Source: Spirochaetota bacterium (GTDB lineage Bacteria > Spirochaetota > B62-G9 > DRHN01). From it: DNA of 37,827 nucleotides. The DNA lies in assembly GCA_011049595.1 (NCBI GenBank), contig DRHN01000219.1:1-37827 (forward strand), given 5' to 3'. The position numbers were made by a program, and so were the translations under genes. This document shows positions 1 to 31,801 of the stretch, piece after piece; positions within the stretch are counted from its first letter, which is position 1; every line of letters begins with the position of its first letter. The notes below the pieces were generated by a model. It was not told the DNA's origin and ran no database searches. It saw only the letters and a program-made list of their open reading frames with translations.

Positions 1-136
1 ATTTATGACCTAACGATAGGGCCAGTACTTAAAGAAATAAACCAGATAAGCCGCGGGAATAGTGTTTGAGATCGTATGGCTTGCGGCTTATCTGGTTTAT
101 TTCTTTAAGTACTGGCCCTATCGTTAGGTCATAAAT
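1..136. repeat. Perfect 54-bp inverted repeat at the window edge
   Basis: Bases 1-54 are the exact reverse complement of bases 83-136, separated by a 28-base spacer (55-82). A run of eight T follows at 142-149. The repeat lies directly upstream of the symporter gene and starts at the very first base. A perfect 54-bp stem at a sequence end is typical of a fold-back (chimeric) read or an assembly edge, but it could be a real hairpin. I see no transposase or coding potential in it. Confidence 0.95.
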
Positions 137-195
137 ACAGCTTTTTTTTGCTTTTCAGGCAGAAAACATATCAGATTTTATTAAAGGAGGGGGAA

Positions 196-1671
196 ATGGA
201 AATCATTGCTCTGTCGGTATTCGGACTCGCAATTCTGGCATTGGCTGCTTATGGGTACAAAATATCGGCCAAAACAGCAGAGGATTATATGCTCGCTGGA
301 AGAACCATAGGTGTAGTTGTGATGTTCTTCTTTATCCTCTTTGCAATTTCAAGCAGCTGGACCTTTTACGGCTATCCCGGTTTTATATATCTAAACGGCC
401 CAGCTTACATCTATTTTATATGGGGGTCTGTAGCGGGTTTTGCCGCTTTATATATGTTTTTAGGCCCGAGGCTCTGGGCTATAGCGCGGATCAACCGCTT
501 TCTTTCACCTGTAGAGCTTTTGAGCGAAAGATACGAATCACCCTTTCTCAGGATACTGCTTTCAATAATGCTGCTTGCCTTCATAGTTCCCTATGTAGGC
601 ATCCAGCCGCTCGGTGTGGGGCTCGGGTTTCAGGCACTGACCGGTATGCCTCTCATGGTCGGCGCCCTTTACACGGTAGCTCTACTTATAATCCTCGTGC
701 TCCTCGGAGGAATGCGGATTGTGGCGTGGGTCAATATTTTTCTCGGCGCCGTTTACGCGTCCGCACTTCTGGGTTCTATCATCTGGATAGTCAACAGGTT
801 CATTCCGGGAGGTCTGCGGGGTGCGGTCGAATTCTTAAAAATTAATAACCCCGCAATGCTGAGCGCTCCGGGGCCTCAGGGATATTTTACTCCGGTAATA
901 ATCGGCGGCACTATGGTCGTCGGCCTTATGGCTTTCAGCTGGCCGCACATCGTCATCGGGGTCATGACTGCGAGAGACAAAATGCTTTTTAAATGGTTCC
1001 CTCTTCTAATCTTTATCTTCGGGGGATTGTTTTTCTACACCATGCCCTTTATATGGGGCTCGCTTATCGCACCCGTTGTGATGCCGGGTGTTGTCGGAAA
1101 AGCTGCGGCTGACAACATTGTCCAGACAATTATAACAACGCATTTACCAAGATGGTTCTCGGTGTACGTCCTCATGGGCGTAATAGCCGCTGCTATTTCC
1201 ACAGCGGCGGTGCAGCTTATGACTTCCAGTGTCATTGTTGCAAGGGACCTCATCCAGGGGTTTATAAAACCCGACGCTACGGATAAACAGATTATAGGAT
1301 GGGCCAGATTGTCAGTAATCGGCATTGTCATCCTCAGTCTCGGCGTTTCGCTCTGGAACCCGACAGCCATGGCCCTTTACCTTACAGACGTGACCATCCC
1401 GGGTTTTGCGCAGTGGGGGCCTGCGCTTGTAGGCGGTATACTCTGGAAACGCGGAACCAAGCAGGGGGCTATCGTGAGCACCCTTGTCGGTGTCGTGTAC
1501 CTTATAGCGGGTTTGATCTACCGTCCTCTTTTTGCGGGTTTTCATCCCGTGATGCCCACGATAATCGTCAATATGGTCCTTTACATAGTGATCAGTTTTC
1601 TGACAAAACGGCCCTCTGAAGAAATACAGTCAAGGTTTTTCGATGAGGTTGACGAATTTCTCGAAGCATGA
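196..1671 (+). CDS. Sodium:solute symporter (SSS) family protein
   Basis: A 491-residue polytopic membrane protein with about twelve or thirteen hydrophobic segments along its whole length and few charged loops. It resembles the sodium:solute symporter family, which couples Na+ entry to uptake of a small solute across the inner membrane. Near the N-terminus, TAEDYMLAGRTIG is the family-typical signature after the first helix. The later glycine-rich helices and the YERYESPFLRIL-type loop (here SERYESPFLRIL) also fit. I chose the ATG at 196 because AAAGGAGG lies just upstream (183-190); a longer reading to a TTG at 148 has no such site. Length is normal for the family. The substrate cannot be told from sequence. 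The neighbouring acyl-CoA synthetase pieces make a carboxylate possible, but that is inference. Confidence 0.85.
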   Translation: MEIIALSVFGLAILALAAYGYKISAKTAEDYMLAGRTIGVVVMFFFILFAISSSWTFYGYPGFIYLNGPAYIYFIWGSVAGFAALYMFLGPRLWAIARINRFLSPVELLSERYESPFLRILLSIMLLAFIVPYVGIQPLGVGLGFQALTGMPLMVGALYTVALLIILVLLGGMRIVAWVNIFLGAVYASALLGSIIWIVNRFIPGGLRGAVEFLKINNPAMLSAPGPQGYFTPVIIGGTMVVGLMAFSWPHIVIGVMTARDKMLFKWFPLLIFIFGGLFFYTMPFIWGSLIAPVVMPGVVGKAAADNIVQTIITTHLPRWFSVYVLMGVIAAAISTAAVQLMTSSVIVARDLIQGFIKPDATDKQIIGWARLSVIGIVILSLGVSLWNPTAMALYLTDVTIPGFAQWGPALVGGILWKRGTKQGAIVSTLVGVVYLIAGLIYRPLFAGFHPVMPTIIVNMVLYIVISFLTKRPSEEIQSRFFDEVDEFLEA

Positions 1672-1753: not shown

Positions 1754-3181
1754 ATGGCAGACAAATGGAGGCTGATATTCAACCCTGAAGGGGACGTAGC
1801 AGACCTGTTTGCATACCCTTCATCCCTGGTCGAAGGTAGAGTGGCGGGAAAGTACCTGCTTGGCAGCGGCACTCTGCCCGACACGATAGTAGTGCAGGGG
1901 ATAAAAAAGAAGGGTATACTGGTAGGCGCCGACGTACGCGTTGACAGGGAGGTTGCCAGGAAAAACGACATAGATGTTGCCGCCTATCCCAGAAGCGGCA
2001 GGGGCGGCGCGAAAATGGCTGACACGATTTCCTTAAAGGAGCTGCTTCTCAAGTCCTCGAAAAAATTTACCGCCGAGGCAGCGGACCCTGACGAACCCGC
2101 AGTTTTGCTGTACACTTCCGGGACAACCGGTAAGCCCAAAGGTGTAAAGCTCTCTTTTAACAATTTCATGGCGGAAAGCAGGGTTGTGGAGCACGTCCTC
2201 TCTGTAAATCAGGAAGACCGCATAATCGCCGTGCTCCCGATGTTTCACGTTTACGCTATGGCCGACGCTCTTCTGCTCTTTTTATACTTCGGGTGCAGCC
2301 TGATAATGATCCCCCAGTACAGCCCGGCTGAGCTTTTAAGGAACATCTCGGAACTAAATGCCACTCTGCTCATCGCAATACCGTCCATGTACATTCACCT
2401 GCTCCAGATAGCAAAAAGCAGAAATGTAAAAATCCCGAAATCCCTCAGATACAGTTTTTCAGGAGGCGCACCCCTGCCGCTGAGTATAATAAAAGAGTTC
2501 GTGGAAGTATTCCAGACAACCATCTCGGAGGGATATGGGCTTACTGAAACAACATCCGGAGTATCATTCAACACATCCGGAGAGAGGTACAAGGCCGGAT
2601 CGATCGGGCCTGCCGCCCCTGGTGTCGAGATGAAGATATTCGACGAGGATGACAACGAACTGAAACCGGGGGCGGAGGGCGAAATTGTTATAAAAGGGGG
2701 AGTCGTTACAAAAGGCTACTATAATCTACCTGAAGAAACGGAAGAAGCCATGCGCGGCGGCTGGTTCCACACGGGCGACTTGGGCTATGTGGATGAAGAC
2801 GGATATTTTTTCATAACCGACCGCAAGAAAGACATCATAATCAGGGGTGGTTTTAACATCTCCCCCCGCGAGGTCGAGGAAACGCTGTTTACTCACAGCA
2901 AGGTTATGGATGCTGCAGTTATCGGTGTACCTGACAAAAGTCAGAGGGAGACAGTCAAGGCATTTGTGGTGTTGAAAGAAGGAGAGAGCGCTGATGCAAA
3001 AGAAATAATCGATTTCTGTAAAGCCCACCTCTCGCCATTCAAGGTCCCTAAATTCGTGGATTTCAGGAAAACTCTTCCTAAAAGCGCGACCGGAAAAGTT
3101 CTCCGAAAAGAGCTCAGGGACGGTTATAAAGATGAAAGGCTCATCGAGAAGGACAATGATACGGGGGAGTTCCGGGATTAA
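1754..3181 (+). CDS. Chimeric protein: lipoate-ligase-like N-terminus joined to acyl-CoA synthetase C-terminal part
   Basis: 475 residues. From about residue 88 this is an ANL-superfamily acyl-CoA synthetase (fatty acid + ATP to acyl-AMP, then acyl-CoA). It has the P-loop YTSGTTGKPKG (120-130), GYGLTETTS, the hinge region TDRKKDIIIRGG and the catalytic lysine motif PKSATGKVLRK near the end. The first ~130 residues of such an enzyme are absent. Residues 1-87 instead resemble the start of lipoate-protein ligase A: WRLI at the N-terminus, GILVGADVRVDREV, then YPRSGRGGA in the place of the usual RR-x-[ST]-GGGA. The missing synthetase N-terminus sits in the next gene, and the missing ligase C-terminus follows it there. 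The junction is between K87 and M88 (about base 2014). CGGAG at 1741-1745 supports the ATG at 1754. Alone it is unlikely to be an active synthetase, unless it complements the neighbour in trans. Confidence 0.85.
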   Translation: MADKWRLIFNPEGDVADLFAYPSSLVEGRVAGKYLLGSGTLPDTIVVQGIKKKGILVGADVRVDREVARKNDIDVAAYPRSGRGGAKMADTISLKELLLKSSKKFTAEAADPDEPAVLLYTSGTTGKPKGVKLSFNNFMAESRVVEHVLSVNQEDRIIAVLPMFHVYAMADALLLFLYFGCSLIMIPQYSPAELLRNISELNATLLIAIPSMYIHLLQIAKSRNVKIPKSLRYSFSGGAPLPLSIIKEFVEVFQTTISEGYGLTETTSGVSFNTSGERYKAGSIGPAAPGVEMKIFDEDDNELKPGAEGEIVIKGGVVTKGYYNLPEETEEAMRGGWFHTGDLGYVDEDGYFFITDRKKDIIIRGGFNISPREVEETLFTHSKVMDAAVIGVPDKSQRETVKAFVVLKEGESADAKEIIDFCKAHLSPFKVPKFVDFRKTLPKSATGKVLRKELRDGYKDERLIEKDNDTGEFRD

Positions 3182-3713
3182 TTTTAAGTTATACCCGATG
3201 TTCAACAGGTACTTATTTACAGGACGATTTGCGGTTATCGGGTAAATTGCAAAAGACAAATTAAAAAAATAACCATGGTGCATTCTTTCATGTTGAGGAG
3301 GTTTCAGGAAAGTGTCAGAATATGCAAGCATAGGGCAAATACTCGAAGAAAGGGCAAAGAAAAATCAAAAAAAAACGGCCCTGTTCTTCGAAGGAAAAGA
3401 GATAAGCTATGATCAGCTCAACGGAAATGTGAATAAGCTGGCAAACGGGCTAAAAAGTCTGGGTATAGCAAAAGGCGACAGAGTGGCCATAATGCTTCCC
3501 AATATCCCGGAGTTTGTTTACTCTTTTTTCGCAATTCAAAAAATCAGTGCTGTTGCTGTCCCCTTTAACACCATGTACAAGGGAAGAGAGGTGACACACA
3601 TACTGAATGACAGCGGGGCCAGGGCCATAATCGCTCTCACTAACTTCGGTGGACTGCTAAACGAGATAAAGCCCGATGTCCCGGCCCTGGAGCACATAAT
3701 ACTGACAGGAGAA
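2015..3713 (+). other. Circularly permuted acyl-CoA synthetase block inside a lipoate-ligase-like gene
   Basis: Removing these 1,699 bases joins 1754-2014 to 3714-4211 in frame. That gives a 252-residue lipoate-ligase-like protein with segments in normal order. Closing the removed block into a circle joins 3312-3713 to 2015-3181 in frame. That gives a 522-residue acyl-CoA synthetase of ordinary length, plus the 130-base spacer 3182-3311, which carries its ribosome binding site. Both predicted parents have canonical length and domain order. The two junctions share no obvious homology: GAAA occurs at both (2011 and 3711), but in different codon phase. The exact breakpoints could shift by a few codons. 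This is inference from domain order, not an alignment. Confidence 0.6.
3192..3244. repeat. Short inverted repeat between the two chimeric genes
   Basis: TACCCGAT at 3192-3199 is the reverse complement of ATCGGGTA at 3237-3244, with 37 bases between. It lies in the 130-base gap after the first chimeric gene and before the ribosome binding site GAGGAGGT (about 3295-3302). There is no T-run, so it is not a standard terminator. An operator is possible, but eight bases could also match by chance. Confidence 0.35.
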
Positions 3714-4211
3714 AGGACTCTCCTTTTTGTGCAGCCTGAAAGCACCGTTTCGGTACAGATGGTTTATGAGAGCAGCTTCTTTAACAGTGTCGACGAAGCG
3801 TATAATAAAGTCGGGGAAATTCTGGTGGAGGTTTTTAAAAAGTTCGGTGTTGACGATGCCTGGTACAAGCACAGGGGCAGCGTGCGCGTAAAAGGCAGGA
3901 AAATAGCGAGCTTTATAGTTTCCAGTGTCGAAAACTTATCAATTATAAACGCGATCTGTTTTATGAGCAAGCTCGCTACGGACGAGTTTTTCAAGGTAAT
4001 ATGGGTACCTCCGGAGGTCAAAGACAAGGTTATCGAGCCTCTGACTTCGGTCGAAGAGATAACGTGCAACAGGCCCGACAACGAGGAATTCAAAAACGTT
4101 GTAACCGGGCTGTTTGGAGAAATGCTTGGAATAGAGATCGAAGAGGGGAAGTTAAAAAGGGACGAAATCTTCGGCTATGAAAAACAGAGGGCCCTTGCTT
4201 TTAAAGCTTGA
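3312..4211 (+). CDS. Chimeric protein: acyl-CoA synthetase N-terminus joined to lipoate-ligase-like C-terminus
   Basis: 299 residues. Residues 1-134 are the start of an acyl-CoA synthetase: an EERAKKNQKKTALFF-type opening, GDRVAIMLPNIPEF and VPFNTMYKGREV, ending at HIILTGE just before the nucleotide-binding P-loop would come. From about residue 135 the sequence is the C-terminal two thirds of a lipoate-protein-ligase-A-like protein. It shows a predicted helix ending FKKFGVDDAW, then VRVKGRKIASF, where K197 sits where the ligase's conserved adenylate-binding lysine is expected, then VPPEVKDKVIEPLTSVEEIT and a small C-terminal domain. The expected asparagine-aspartate before the lysine motif is not evident (HRGSV), so the ligase may be diverged even if reassembled. 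Start is GTG at 3312, with GAGGAGGT nine bases upstream. It complements the gene before it. Confidence 0.85.
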   Translation: MSEYASIGQILEERAKKNQKKTALFFEGKEISYDQLNGNVNKLANGLKSLGIAKGDRVAIMLPNIPEFVYSFFAIQKISAVAVPFNTMYKGREVTHILNDSGARAIIALTNFGGLLNEIKPDVPALEHIILTGERTLLFVQPESTVSVQMVYESSFFNSVDEAYNKVGEILVEVFKKFGVDDAWYKHRGSVRVKGRKIASFIVSSVENLSIINAICFMSKLATDEFFKVIWVPPEVKDKVIEPLTSVEEITCNRPDNEEFKNVVTGLFGEMLGIEIEEGKLKRDEIFGYEKQRALAFKA

Positions 4212-19583: not shown

Positions 19584-21170
19584 TTAAATGTTCACATCTT
19601 TAATATCTTCAATGTTGAGCATTTTCATGATCTTGTTTTTTGCCTCGAGATAGCTGATAAAAGCTATTATTTCATCCGCAGTCTTGCACCGTAAAAGCCA
19701 TTCAAAATGCTCGATGTGTGAAAAGATCCTTGAAAGAGATTCAACCATCCTTTTATAAATTTCACCGAGGTATTCCGGGGCGAGGAACATAAACGCGATG
19801 TTAATAGGCATGTCATCGGACAGCTTCATATCTATTCCCCCGGGTGAAAGCCCTATTATTGGGACAATATCATCGGCAAAATCCCCGAAAGCGTGAAAAA
19901 ACACCATGTTCTTGTTTATAGGGGTAGTCACAACCTCCCAGTTCTCCTTGAGGGCCTTTTTTGCCTCCTCAGGGTCCGTGATCCTGCTTTTCCCTGCGGT
20001 AATCAGCTCATTAATAACTTCGGATTTTGTGCTGCCTTTCAACCTCGGAATAATGAGCTCCTTGTGAAACATCAGTGAGGCCGTATAAGGGAGGGGTTTT
20101 ACAAAATCCATGGCCGCTGCGTTTGATTGCTCCAACACGATGTTTCTCAGTTCCCGGTACTCGCGAATTGTGATCATAGGAGGTCTTTCTGTCCCCCAGA
20201 CTTTCTTCTTTTCCAATGAGTAGCCGTGTTTGACCCCTGTAATGATCTGCAGAGAATCCGAAATATCCTGAAAGATTTCTATTCTGCCCATATCATCCGC
20301 GCGCTGGAGAAGTATTTTCAGGATCCTGTATGACATGGACCTGAGAGCGTCAATACTCTGGTTTCTGTGGACCCTGACGTCAAGGTCACACTGGCCTATG
20401 AAATTCAGACCGTAAAGCCTGATTATGTCTATAAGATGTCCTGTTTCAACCCCGTAGCCTGTAAAAAAAGAAAGGTTCTCGAGCAGCTCTCTCCTCCCTG
20501 CGTACTCACCTGAAAGGGGCTGCGCAATGCCTGTCAGCTCGGGGAAAAGAAGATTGAAAAAAGGCCGAACAACGAGCTCGGTCACCCGCCCGCCTCCGGT
20601 GAAATGGAGCTCACCCTGAATACGGATAGGTCTTTTGTAAAATGCTTTTACATAGGAAATGTGAGGGAACTCAAGAAGGGGACCGACAAGCCCGAGCACG
20701 AACCTGGGGTGAATATTTGATATATCTGCATCGATCCAGCAGATAATATCGCCCTTGAGAAGATAGAGGCTTTTCCACAGGTTTTCCCCTTTACCGCGAT
20801 AGGACCTGTATTGAGGGAGAATATCAGAAGAGTAGCAAAAGTCGACACCCGCTTCCCGTGAGATATCCCCGGTGTTGTCCGTCGAGCCGGAATCCACGAC
20901 AGCGATCTCATCGATAAGATGGTACTTGTCCATGAGCTCTTTTTTCATGGTCGAGATTTCCCGCCCGATCGTTTTTTCTTCATTCAGCGTCGGAAAACAA
21001 AGGCTTATCGAACACCCGAGCTCATTCTTTTTTGTTACCAGTTTTTCGACATCATCAAATCTTGAATGATGGAACGTATTTCTATTCAACCACTCCTTTA
21101 TGTATGAAGGGTGTTCGGGATGTGTTGCTAACGATTCCTCCTCTTTTTTTGATCTAAAAAGAGAGGACAT
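19584..21170 (-). CDS. gpgS: Glucosyl-3-phosphoglycerate synthase fused to a PTS EIIA-like domain
   Basis: 528 residues in two parts. Residues ~50-335 are a GT81-type glucosyl-3-phosphoglycerate synthase, which transfers glucose from an NDP-glucose to 3-phosphoglycerate. Signatures are CFPTLNEEKTIG, VVDSGSTDNT (91-100), the metal-binding DAD (147-149) in WIDADISNIHP, GLVGPLLEFP, TGYGVETG and HRNQS. Residues ~368-515 resemble PTS EIIA of the fructose/PtsN class: STKSEVINELI, TTPINKNMVFFHAFGD with H426 at the expected phosphorylation position, SPGGIDM, and NIAFMFLAPEY. Stand-alone GpgS is about 300-330 residues. The EIIA-like part could let phosphorylation state control osmolyte synthesis (inference). 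AAGGGGGT precedes the ATG. It is divergent from a GH13_18 phosphorylase that probably degrades the product. Confidence 0.85.
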   Translation of the reverse strand: MSSLFRSKKEEESLATHPEHPSYIKEWLNRNTFHHSRFDDVEKLVTKKNELGCSISLCFPTLNEEKTIGREISTMKKELMDKYHLIDEIAVVDSGSTDNTGDISREAGVDFCYSSDILPQYRSYRGKGENLWKSLYLLKGDIICWIDADISNIHPRFVLGLVGPLLEFPHISYVKAFYKRPIRIQGELHFTGGGRVTELVVRPFFNLLFPELTGIAQPLSGEYAGRRELLENLSFFTGYGVETGHLIDIIRLYGLNFIGQCDLDVRVHRNQSIDALRSMSYRILKILLQRADDMGRIEIFQDISDSLQIITGVKHGYSLEKKKVWGTERPPMITIREYRELRNIVLEQSNAAAMDFVKPLPYTASLMFHKELIIPRLKGSTKSEVINELITAGKSRITDPEEAKKALKENWEVVTTPINKNMVFFHAFGDFADDIVPIIGLSPGGIDMKLSDDMPINIAFMFLAPEYLGEIYKRMVESLSRIFSHIEHFEWLLRCKTADEIIAFISYLEAKNKIMKMLNIEDIKDVNI

Positions 21171-29812: not shown

Positions 29813-31392
29813 TAATTGCCTCCATAATTATTATTAGGTATGATCTCGCCTTTAAACACATCAATGACCTTGGATACCTCCGGGGAAAGAGGCGGGTCTT
29901 CTTTGCCGGGAGCCTTCCTGTTGTTAATAACAAAATTAACACGTATATCCAGCTGTAGTAATTTATTTATCTCTTTTTCGATAAACTTTTTTGTAGAATC
30001 TTCATTTACATGTTCATAGCTCAATCTTTCATTCTGCTCATAAGTCACCGTCAATAAATTGTTATCAAAATTATATTTTTTTGCCCTGTTTAGAAACTCA
30101 GCGATAGCCCGCCTTTTTTTTGAAAAATGTGAAATGATACGCTTGATCATGTCGGCGTTATCTTCTGAAGCGTTGCTTACATCTTTTTCCTCGTTATCTT
30201 CGGGGGGCGGAGTATTCTTTTTTTCATCGGCAACCTGGCCGCCGGCCGTAATTTTTTGTTTAAGTTCTTCAAGCCTCTTAATAAGTGATACAGGCTGAAT
30301 AATATCTTTATATCGGACCAGCTTTATTAAGGTGATTTCCAATAATTCACGTGCCAGGCCGCTGTTTTTTGTGTCAAGATAGGTCCTGGAAAGGAGCACG
30401 AGTATGTTGTTGATATCTTTTTTGGTAAAGGAAGAGAGAAAGGACTTCATAGTATCTATGTCCTGTTCCGGCAGATCTACCAGATTTGACGTTTCTTTGT
30501 CGGCCGCGAGAATGTAAAGGTTCCGAAAATATTCGATCAACCCGGTAACAAGGGTACTGACCTCCATTCCGTCACGCAGGAGCTTATCCAGCAGAGAAAC
30601 AGCTGTGCTGAAGTCTTCCCCGGCGATCGATCTCGCAAATTCGTGATATATATCATAGCTCGGTATCCCAAGCACATAAAACACATCTTCTTCTTTGATG
30701 GTTCCCTCGCAGTATGAGATCATCTGGTCCAGCACGGATTGAGCGTCCCTCATGGCGCCCACAGCGCTTTTTGCTATCCAGAAGAGCGCATCTTCCTCCG
30801 CTTCCATCGATACATCCCGAAGGACCTTTTTTAGCATTTTCACGATTTCAGGTATGGCTATCCGTTTGAAGACAAACTGCTGACATCTCGAGCGTATAGT
30901 CTGGGGAACTTTATTGATCTCTGTGGTCGCGAACATGAATATCACATGGGAGGGAGGCTCCTCCAGAGTCTTCAGCAGCGCGTTAAAAGCCTCAGATGTC
31001 AGCATATGAACTTCATCTATTATGTAGATCTTATACTTTGCGGCGGACGGAACAAATCTTATATTCTCGCGCAGCTGTCTTATCTCATCGATCCTTCTGT
31101 TTGACGCTCCATCTATTTCAACCAGGTCAAGAGACCTGCCTTCGGTGATCTCGGTGCAAAAGGTGCACTCATTACAGGGAGTGGGAGTAGGCCCGTTTTT
31201 ACAGTTGAGGGCTTTTGCGAATATCCTCGCGGCCGAGGTCTTACCTATACCCCTGGGGCCTGAAAAGATATAAGCGTGTCCTACCCTTTCTTTGAGAATA
31301 GCGTTTTTAAGAGTATTGGCTATATGTTCCTGACCGACAAGTTCTTCAAATACCTGCGGTCTGTATTTTCGCGCGGTTACGATGTAAGCCAT
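29812..31392 (-). CDS. dnaX: DNA polymerase III gamma/tau subunit
   Basis: 526 residues. DnaX is the AAA+ clamp-loader motor of the replicative polymerase. Visible are ARKYRPQVFEELVGQEH at the N-terminus, Walker A GPRGIGKTSAARIF, zinc-binding cysteines (CNECTFC and the preceding C), Walker B IIDEVHML, TLEEPPSHVIFMFATTE and the arginine-finger motif SRCQQF. Residues after ~370 form a charged, low-complexity linker, then a tau-specific C-terminal domain. At codons 390-392 the sequence GAA AAA AAG contains the A AAA AAG slippery heptamer in the 0-frame phase used for programmed frameshifting in E. coli dnaX, so a shorter gamma-like form is likely. The gene heads the dnaX-ybaB-recR operon, downstream of the SRP RNA. 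Confidence 0.96.
   Translation of the reverse strand: MAYIVTARKYRPQVFEELVGQEHIANTLKNAILKERVGHAYIFSGPRGIGKTSAARIFAKALNCKNGPTPTPCNECTFCTEITEGRSLDLVEIDGASNRRIDEIRQLRENIRFVPSAAKYKIYIIDEVHMLTSEAFNALLKTLEEPPSHVIFMFATTEINKVPQTIRSRCQQFVFKRIAIPEIVKMLKKVLRDVSMEAEEDALFWIAKSAVGAMRDAQSVLDQMISYCEGTIKEEDVFYVLGIPSYDIYHEFARSIAGEDFSTAVSLLDKLLRDGMEVSTLVTGLIEYFRNLYILAADKETSNLVDLPEQDIDTMKSFLSSFTKKDINNILVLLSRTYLDTKNSGLARELLEITLIKLVRYKDIIQPVSLIKRLEELKQKITAGGQVADEKKNTPPPEDNEEKDVSNASEDNADMIKRIISHFSKKRRAIAEFLNRAKKYNFDNNLLTVTYEQNERLSYEHVNEDSTKKFIEKEINKLLQLDIRVNFVINNRKAPGKEDPPLSPEVSKVIDVFKGEIIPNNNYGGN
30194..30223 (-). other. Candidate programmed -1 frameshift site in dnaX
   Basis: On the coding strand A AAA AAG (30223-30217) is in the X-XXY-YYZ phase. 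A -1 shift re-reads the last G and gives GAA TAC TCC GCC CCC CGA AGA TAA, stopping at 30196-30194 after seven extra codons. The product would be about 399 residues: the ATPase and collar domains without the tau tail. I see no strong downstream stem-loop; AGG occurs some 15 bases upstream. Transcriptional slippage on the seven-A run could give a similar result. Confidence 0.65.
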
Positions 31393-31492: not shown

Positions 31493-31640
31493 GGGCTTAT
31501 TTCACAGTGCCTGCTCCAACCGGATAGCAAATTCACAAAAACAGAACGCTTGCCGTTGCTCCCTTCCGGGCCTGGCGGGGTTGAGCGACTGCCCTTTGAA
31601 TCGTACCCGGTTTTCACAGCAGGCACTGTGAAATAAGCCC
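31493..31640 (-). ncRNA. ffs: Signal recognition particle RNA (4.5S type)
   Basis: On the minus strand CCAGGCCCGGAAGGGAGCAA is the diagnostic domain IV of SRP RNA: a GGAA tetraloop closed by CCC/GGG (31561-31570) and the asymmetric internal loop that binds Ffh. Outside it, complementary segments continue as a rod: CCGGGTA pairs with TATCCGG, and GATTC with GAAT. The outermost 23 bases (31618-31640) are a perfect reverse complement of 31493-31515, so I set the gene ends there. The true ends could be further in. No Alu domain is seen, so it is the small bacterial form. It lies between tRNA-Ser and dnaX, a common bacterial arrangement. Confidence 0.85.
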
Positions 31641-31713: not shown

Positions 31714-31801
31714 CGGAGAGAGTGGGATTCGAACCCACGGTACCTGGTTAAGGTACACACGCTTTCCAAGCGTGCTCCTTCGGCCCCTCGGACATCTCTC
31801 C
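31714..31801 (-). tRNA. tRNA-Ser (anticodon GGA)
   Basis: 88 bases. The acceptor stem GGAGAGA/TCTCTCC has discriminator G. The anticodon arm CACGC-TTGGAAA-GCGTG gives anticodon GGA. A long class II variable arm (GTACCT/AGGTAC) and T arm GTGGG-TTCGAAT-CCCAC identify serine. CCA is not encoded. It is followed on the same strand by the SRP RNA and dnaX. Confidence 0.97.

Follow-up and report, generated by a model that had tools for sequence, protein, structure and literature searches.

What might be encoded by two neighboring genes that each carry one part of each of two unrelated enzymes? This question is raised by two adjacent open frames, on the same strand and each with its own start, in a 37,827-nucleotide contig (DRHN01000219.1) of a Spirochaetota bacterium, referred to here as the window. 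As listed in Table 1, ORF1 and ORF2 each combine a part of a lipoate-ligase-like domain (LplN or LplC) with a part of an acyl-CoA synthetase (AcsC or AcsN). Joining the ligase-like parts at 2014/3714 gives a virtual protein of 252 amino acids, and joining the synthetase parts at 3713/2015 gives one of 522 amino acids, in frame in both cases. AcsC contains the motifs YTSGTTGKPKG (2111-2143) and EGYGLTE (2528-2548), the A8 motif (from 2819), and the A10 lysine (3095-3097); LplN ends in RSGRGGAK, the equivalent of the lipoyl-binding RRSGGGA loop; and LplC has the equivalent of the catalytic lysine at 3900-3902. We note that the breakpoints 2014/2015 and 3713/3714 have no repeat or microhomology of more than 6 bases in common, and a misjoined assembly at these sites therefore lacks a repeat basis.

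Table 1. Coordinates of the chimeric genes, their parts, and the associated transport genes in the window
Feature	Description	Position	Strand	Basis or remark
ORF1	Chimera LplN:AcsC, 475 amino acids	1754-3181	+	Pfam and NCBIfam matches; kept in relatives
ORF2	Chimera AcsN:LplC, 299 amino acids	3312-4211	+	GTG start; ribosome site GAGGAGG ahead
LplN	N-terminal part of lipoate-ligase-like catalytic domain	1754-2014	+	hhalign against genuine ligases
AcsC	C-terminal part of acyl-CoA synthetase, starting shortly ahead of the P-loop	2015-3181	+	NF004837 146-526/531
AcsN	Initial 134 residues of the same acyl-CoA synthetase as AcsC	3312-3713	+	NF004837 6-144/531
LplC	Second part of lipoate-ligase-like domain	3714-4211	+	PF21948
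Symporter	Sodium:solute symporter (SSS family), first large gene of the module	193-1671	+	PF00474, E 1.6e-24
Small membrane protein	C-terminal tail (IVWLAAYLVYFFKYWPYR*) of a ~77-amino acid membrane protein	71-127	+	Frame-2 translation; opens the operon

The two genes together hold one complete acyl-CoA synthetase

In Pfam searches, ORF1 matched AMP-binding at positions 151-384 together with AMP-binding_C, and ORF2 matched AMP-binding positions 1-113 followed by PF21948 (LplA-B_cat; E 3e-5). Against the 531 positions of NF004837, with the halves matched separately, residues 3-141 of ORF2 corresponded to positions 6-144 and residues 89-462 of ORF1 to positions 146-526, and AcsN and AcsC tiled the model without overlap and with a gap of one position. 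Between them, the two genes thus encode a full acyl-CoA synthetase, of which essentially nothing has been lost or doubled. Further, the virtual synthetase aligned with intact synthetases over ~520 columns.

Across 33 genomes, the P-loop on ORF1 (TSGTTGxPKG) is near-invariant, with one Ser position at 96%, and the A5 (EGYGLTE), A7 (TGD), A8 (DRKKD...GGxNISPRE), and A10 lysine (PKxxTGK) motifs, also on ORF1, are invariant or at least 90% conserved. Despite these invariant catalytic motifs, neither chain of the 33 pairs has the full domain set: no single polypeptide carries a complete ANL N-terminal domain, of which 1-113 lie on ORF2 and 151-384 on ORF1, and the AMP-binding domain is split likewise in 9 of 9 further genomes. 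When the synthetases of these 9 host genomes were compared, the ordinary ones were whole, fragments and frameshifts aside, and only the module pair was split, at AMP-binding ~125/151. In a tree whose intact sample comprised 18 sequences, all from Spirochaetota, the chimeric synthetases formed one group apart from the intact ones (support 98/99), a grouping as would be expected of a single origin. The virtual protein resembles ANL acyl-CoA synthetases (NF004837/PRK06187; PF00501 and PF13193) in all catalytic motifs, in its length, and in aligning with them from end to end, but it differs from them in being divided over two polypeptides, in permuted order, with another half domain attached to each half. 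Separately, an acyl-CoA synthetase with a long C-terminal extension (locus L013) was examined as a candidate fused ancestor and rejected, as its extension, inspected by eye, contains no ligase-like sequence.

The other two halves resemble a lipoate-ligase catalytic domain

The first-pass annotation of this DNA had proposed an alignment of the virtual parents to family profiles as a check. For the ligase, the joined protein gained a PF03099 match at residues 70-163, spanning the junction, and LplC exceeded the PF21948 cut-off in several relatives, but LplN alone is too weak for Pfam. All 12 of the 12 joined ligases matched PF21948 (best E value 2.5e-10). In hhalign comparisons with genuine lipoate ligases, the joined halves gave an E value of 1.4e-12 over 221 colinear columns, LplN 2.4e-4, and LplC 9e-10; a PDB sequence search with the ligase part found no ligase. 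Judged from these alignments, the ligase relationship of the joined halves appears remote (~20% identity) but consistent. The parentage assigned to the four pieces in the first-pass annotation is thus borne out by the NF004837 tiling and the colinear ligase alignment. The in-frame exchange and its sites, as described there, stand with the two virtual proteins, and the statement that neither product is complete alone agrees with the division of the AMP-binding domain over ORF1 and ORF2.

The residues E27GR..GKYxL, R80, and G82 of LplN are invariant in 33 genomes, as is the catalytic-lysine equivalent, K150 of the joined ligase (GxK[IL]A). The lipoyl-binding loop RRSGGGAVxHDxGN, however, is incomplete: the first part (RxGRxGA) is kept, the crossover follows, and the second half is missing. 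Because the loop is interrupted at the crossover, the HG motif that follows the lysine is lost, and ordinary LplA/LipB-type proteins are also present in 11 of 11 host genomes tested, we favor a role as a structural clamp; the ligase-like domain probably does not work as a ligase.

The joined halves have in common with lipoate-protein ligase catalytic domains (PF21948/PF03099) a colinear, domain-wide similarity and the catalytic-lysine equivalent, but here the exchange interrupts the lipoyl-binding loop, the HG motif is lost, and the domain is spread over two chains. Bipartite LplA-LplB ligases and the permuted Lpl(BA) are a precedent for a ligase made of two polypeptides, the domain order of which can be permuted (PMC10332631), and the pair described here is similar in both respects. 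In LplA-LplB, the split separates the catalytic from the accessory domain (PMC10332631), whereas in the present pair it cuts through the catalytic domain and is common to a second, unrelated enzyme; ORF1 and ORF2 are not separate catalytic and accessory-domain chains.

The exchange is conserved over 14 families of Spirochaetota

With a profile of LplC, the pair was found in other Spirochaetota families and then in 42 of 395 genomes from the class to which one of these families belongs. Altogether, 47 of ~549 Spirochaetota genomes examined, representing ~24 genera and 14 families, carry the chimeric pair with gene order and junctions unchanged, and two of these hosts are single-contig genomes, each 99% complete. 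Because the pattern recurs in 47 genomes, a chance arrangement is excluded. Full-length homologues of ORF1 in other genera of the window's family are 67-74% identical, those of ORF2 likewise, and identity among same-junction pairs goes down to ~45%. In a profile scan of the fetched loci, the symporter was followed by LplN:AcsC and then by AcsN:LplC in every case in which the contig ends allow the order to be read, apart from the decayed or frameshifted copies described below. Pairwise dN/dS was 0.00-0.12 in all four halves, which are under strong purifying selection. Further, the distances of AcsN correlated with those of AcsC, on the other protein, at r 0.85, compared with r 0.72 for LplC, on its own chain.

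The sensitive profile searches covered Spirochaetota, and among the Spirochaetota genomes scanned we found no intact parent genes or intermediates, no close intact ligase, and no genome in the ancestral state. A scan of 84,980 named genomes, which used patterns from one family only and is too narrow to prove absence elsewhere, returned four loci, all from uncultured Spirochaetota (JAUVYC010000185.1, CP070841.1, DRHE01000404.1, and JAFGTF010000022.1), and missed divergent members that are now known. Chimeras were not found on plasmids or viral contigs, nor did we find a description of a chimera of this kind in open papers.

Decayed or frameshifted copies of the module were seen at loci L067 (genome G360), L111, L118 (G490), and L136 (G548), and the module is therefore not essential everywhere and can be lost. 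At L046/L111 (HyVt-362), a single frame at L046:3235-4332 runs through what is left of the symporter region and on through AcsC, AcsN, and LplC, as the result of an internal deletion that leaves neither LplN nor the P-loop; this copy is either a decayed gene or an assembly collapse. In the single-contig record CP070841.1 (G004), a run of N interrupts each of the two ORFs, which are separated by 1.2 Mb (L069:7556-8530 and L070:7358-8143), and this scaffold seems to be misjoined inside the module.

A sodium:solute symporter accompanies the pair

The symporter matched PF00474 with 87 bits (cut-off 22.8), and its best scores were with pantothenate and proline symporters. Among 296 Spirochaetota genomes, eight carry the symporter, all eight together with the chimeric pair, and no symporter relative without the pair was found in this set. 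In nearly all cases, the symporter gene is itself preceded by a further gene: directly upstream of it, 30 loci (e.g. L065:9924-10157 and L064:9109-9405) encode a two-segment membrane protein of ~77 amino acids ending in ...YFFFFWPYR, which matches no Pfam or NCBIfam family above cut-off and is a likely partner of the symporter. The window holds only the tail of this protein because the contig starts there with a palindromic end: within window 1-136, the opening sequence recurs in inverted orientation (88%), and its first ~50 letters are an artifact of this palindromic contig end. The remainder is on another contig of the same genome (C106), which matches window 50-123 on the minus strand; the two contigs abut.

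An SSS symporter with a small membrane protein just upstream resembles ActP/YjcH and MctP, carboxylate symporters of the same composition. The module has both components in common with these systems, but its symporter scores far too low for either family, with 55 bits against a cut-off of 625 for MctP and 25 bits against 750 for ActP. The simplest reading of the gene content is that the module may serve the uptake and activation of a carboxylic acid. At the pair loci, we found no conserved neighbors beyond the four-gene module and no recurring gene for a lipoylated protein; genes for RpiB and transketolase lie downstream in the window's family and are not general. Elsewhere in the window, the genes for a bacterial small SRP RNA and a tRNA are neighbors on the minus strand (31515-31612 and 31714-31801), beside dnaX (29815-31392), and a single ORF (19584-21170, minus strand) has the uncommon domain composition of a family 2 glycosyltransferase with a PTS EIIA-type domain behind it.

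The predicted structure supports assembly of the halves

In one relative (G129), both genes are in one frame, 3 bases apart, and a single chain results if the stop is replaced by serine. The AlphaFold2 prediction of the pair, made as a tethered single chain rather than as a multimer (771 residues, 59 rows), gave a pLDDT of 85.2 and a pTM of 0.79, and ORF2 alone (32 rows) gave 76.5 and 0.51, respectively. Inside the joined chain, the ORF2 residues averaged a pLDDT of ~91, compared with 76.5 alone, and both crossovers were placed in loops between strands. The model supports the view that the halves may assemble with each other. Foldseek aligns structures in sequence order and is therefore unable to trace the permutation; it registers the AcsC half alone, and the matches listed for the joined model and for ORF2 were all synthetases.

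A putative obligate heterodimer and its alternatives

The arrangement, its conservation, the purifying selection, the intact motifs, and the constant linkage to the symporter are direct observations. We strongly infer that ORF1 and ORF2 assemble in trans, and we consider it likely that, as a whole, they are the subunits of one obligate heterodimer that would activate an imported carboxylate. AcsN of ORF2 and AcsC of ORF1 would rebuild one complete AMP-forming acyl-CoA synthetase, and LplN of ORF1 and LplC of ORF2 would rebuild one lipoate-ligase-fold domain, with the chains crossing twice, at a surface loop of each domain, and with the ligase-like domain as a built-in clamp, degenerate and structural. 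Immediately after import via the neighboring two-component Na+ symporter, the carboxylic acid would be converted to acyl-AMP and then to acyl-CoA.

An interlocked enzyme whose two parents have traded halves for good, so that each depends on the other, and in which both sites work, the synthetase activating the imported acid and the ligase fold handling or transferring the acyl group, would be of a kind not previously described, and we regard it as unlikely. We are somewhat more doubtful of a bifunctional heterodimer in which the synthetase makes lipoyl-, octanoyl-, or acyl-AMP, the ligase fold passes the acyl group to a protein, and the symporter is a vitamin-type SSS importer; such an enzyme might, with the same doubt, be likened to the mitochondrial lipoate-activating enzyme and lipoyltransferase. 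The invariance of the lysine equivalent (GxK[IL]A) and of several arginines, the purifying selection on the ligase part, and the best scores of the symporter, which are with pantothenate and proline symporters, would fit this explanation, but the exchange sits in the lipoyl-binding loop, the second half of which (within GGGAVxHDxGN) is missing, the HG motif is gone, ordinary LplA/LipB-type proteins occur in every one of the 11 genomes tested, and no lipoylated-protein gene recurs beside the pair. It is similarly improbable that the chimeras are two separately acting enzymes, each with its own new function and no common synthetase. There are indeed two genes with their own starts, and each domain half is a substantial folding unit; however, the synthetase motifs are invariant across both proteins, the synthetase halves tile exactly, and the fold of ORF2 is predicted much better with its partner.

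The first-pass annotation had favored a single insertion of a 1.7-kb circle carrying the synthetase gene into the ligase gene. The geometry of the window alone fits a recent, non-functional insertion that left two broken genes, but the same junctions occur in 47 genomes down to ~45% identity, dN/dS is far below 1, and no intact ancestor is nearby; we consider such an event very unlikely and, with the junctions fixed under purifying selection, refuted. What survives of this proposal is an ancient insertion of a circularized synthetase gene as one possible origin of an exchange now spread over ~24 genera and 14 families. The observed order would be explained equally well if neighboring genes had swapped their 3' halves. 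That the tiling is exact (144/146) speaks against unrelated fusions on separate occasions. A fault of assembly, which had also been raised, has a negligible probability: the window's genome is fragmented (521 contigs, 7.7% contamination), and its first ~50 bases are artifactual, but independent assemblies of other genera, including the single-contig genomes, have the identical architecture, which refutes it, and ordinary synthetases are assembled whole in the same genomes. Full-length homologues with the same chimeric order had been named beforehand as favoring a real two-subunit enzyme, and their presence in 47 genomes points to the heterodimer.

Significance

Overall, we conclude that the swap of halves is old and strictly conserved and that the two proteins probably work interlocked. 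Taken singly, gene fission, domain insertion, and circular permutation are already known; here, they come together in two unrelated enzymes that have reciprocally traded halves, an arrangement that has become fixed across much of a phylum. After such a swap, neither gene can be lost and the two have to be expressed together, and the pair offers a natural test case for the emergence of obligate hetero-oligomers. With standard profiles, both proteins appear only as synthetase fragments. If the complex is confirmed, it would offer protein designers a natural split enzyme with a double crossover and would allow a four-gene uptake-and-activation module to be assigned in Spirochaetota.
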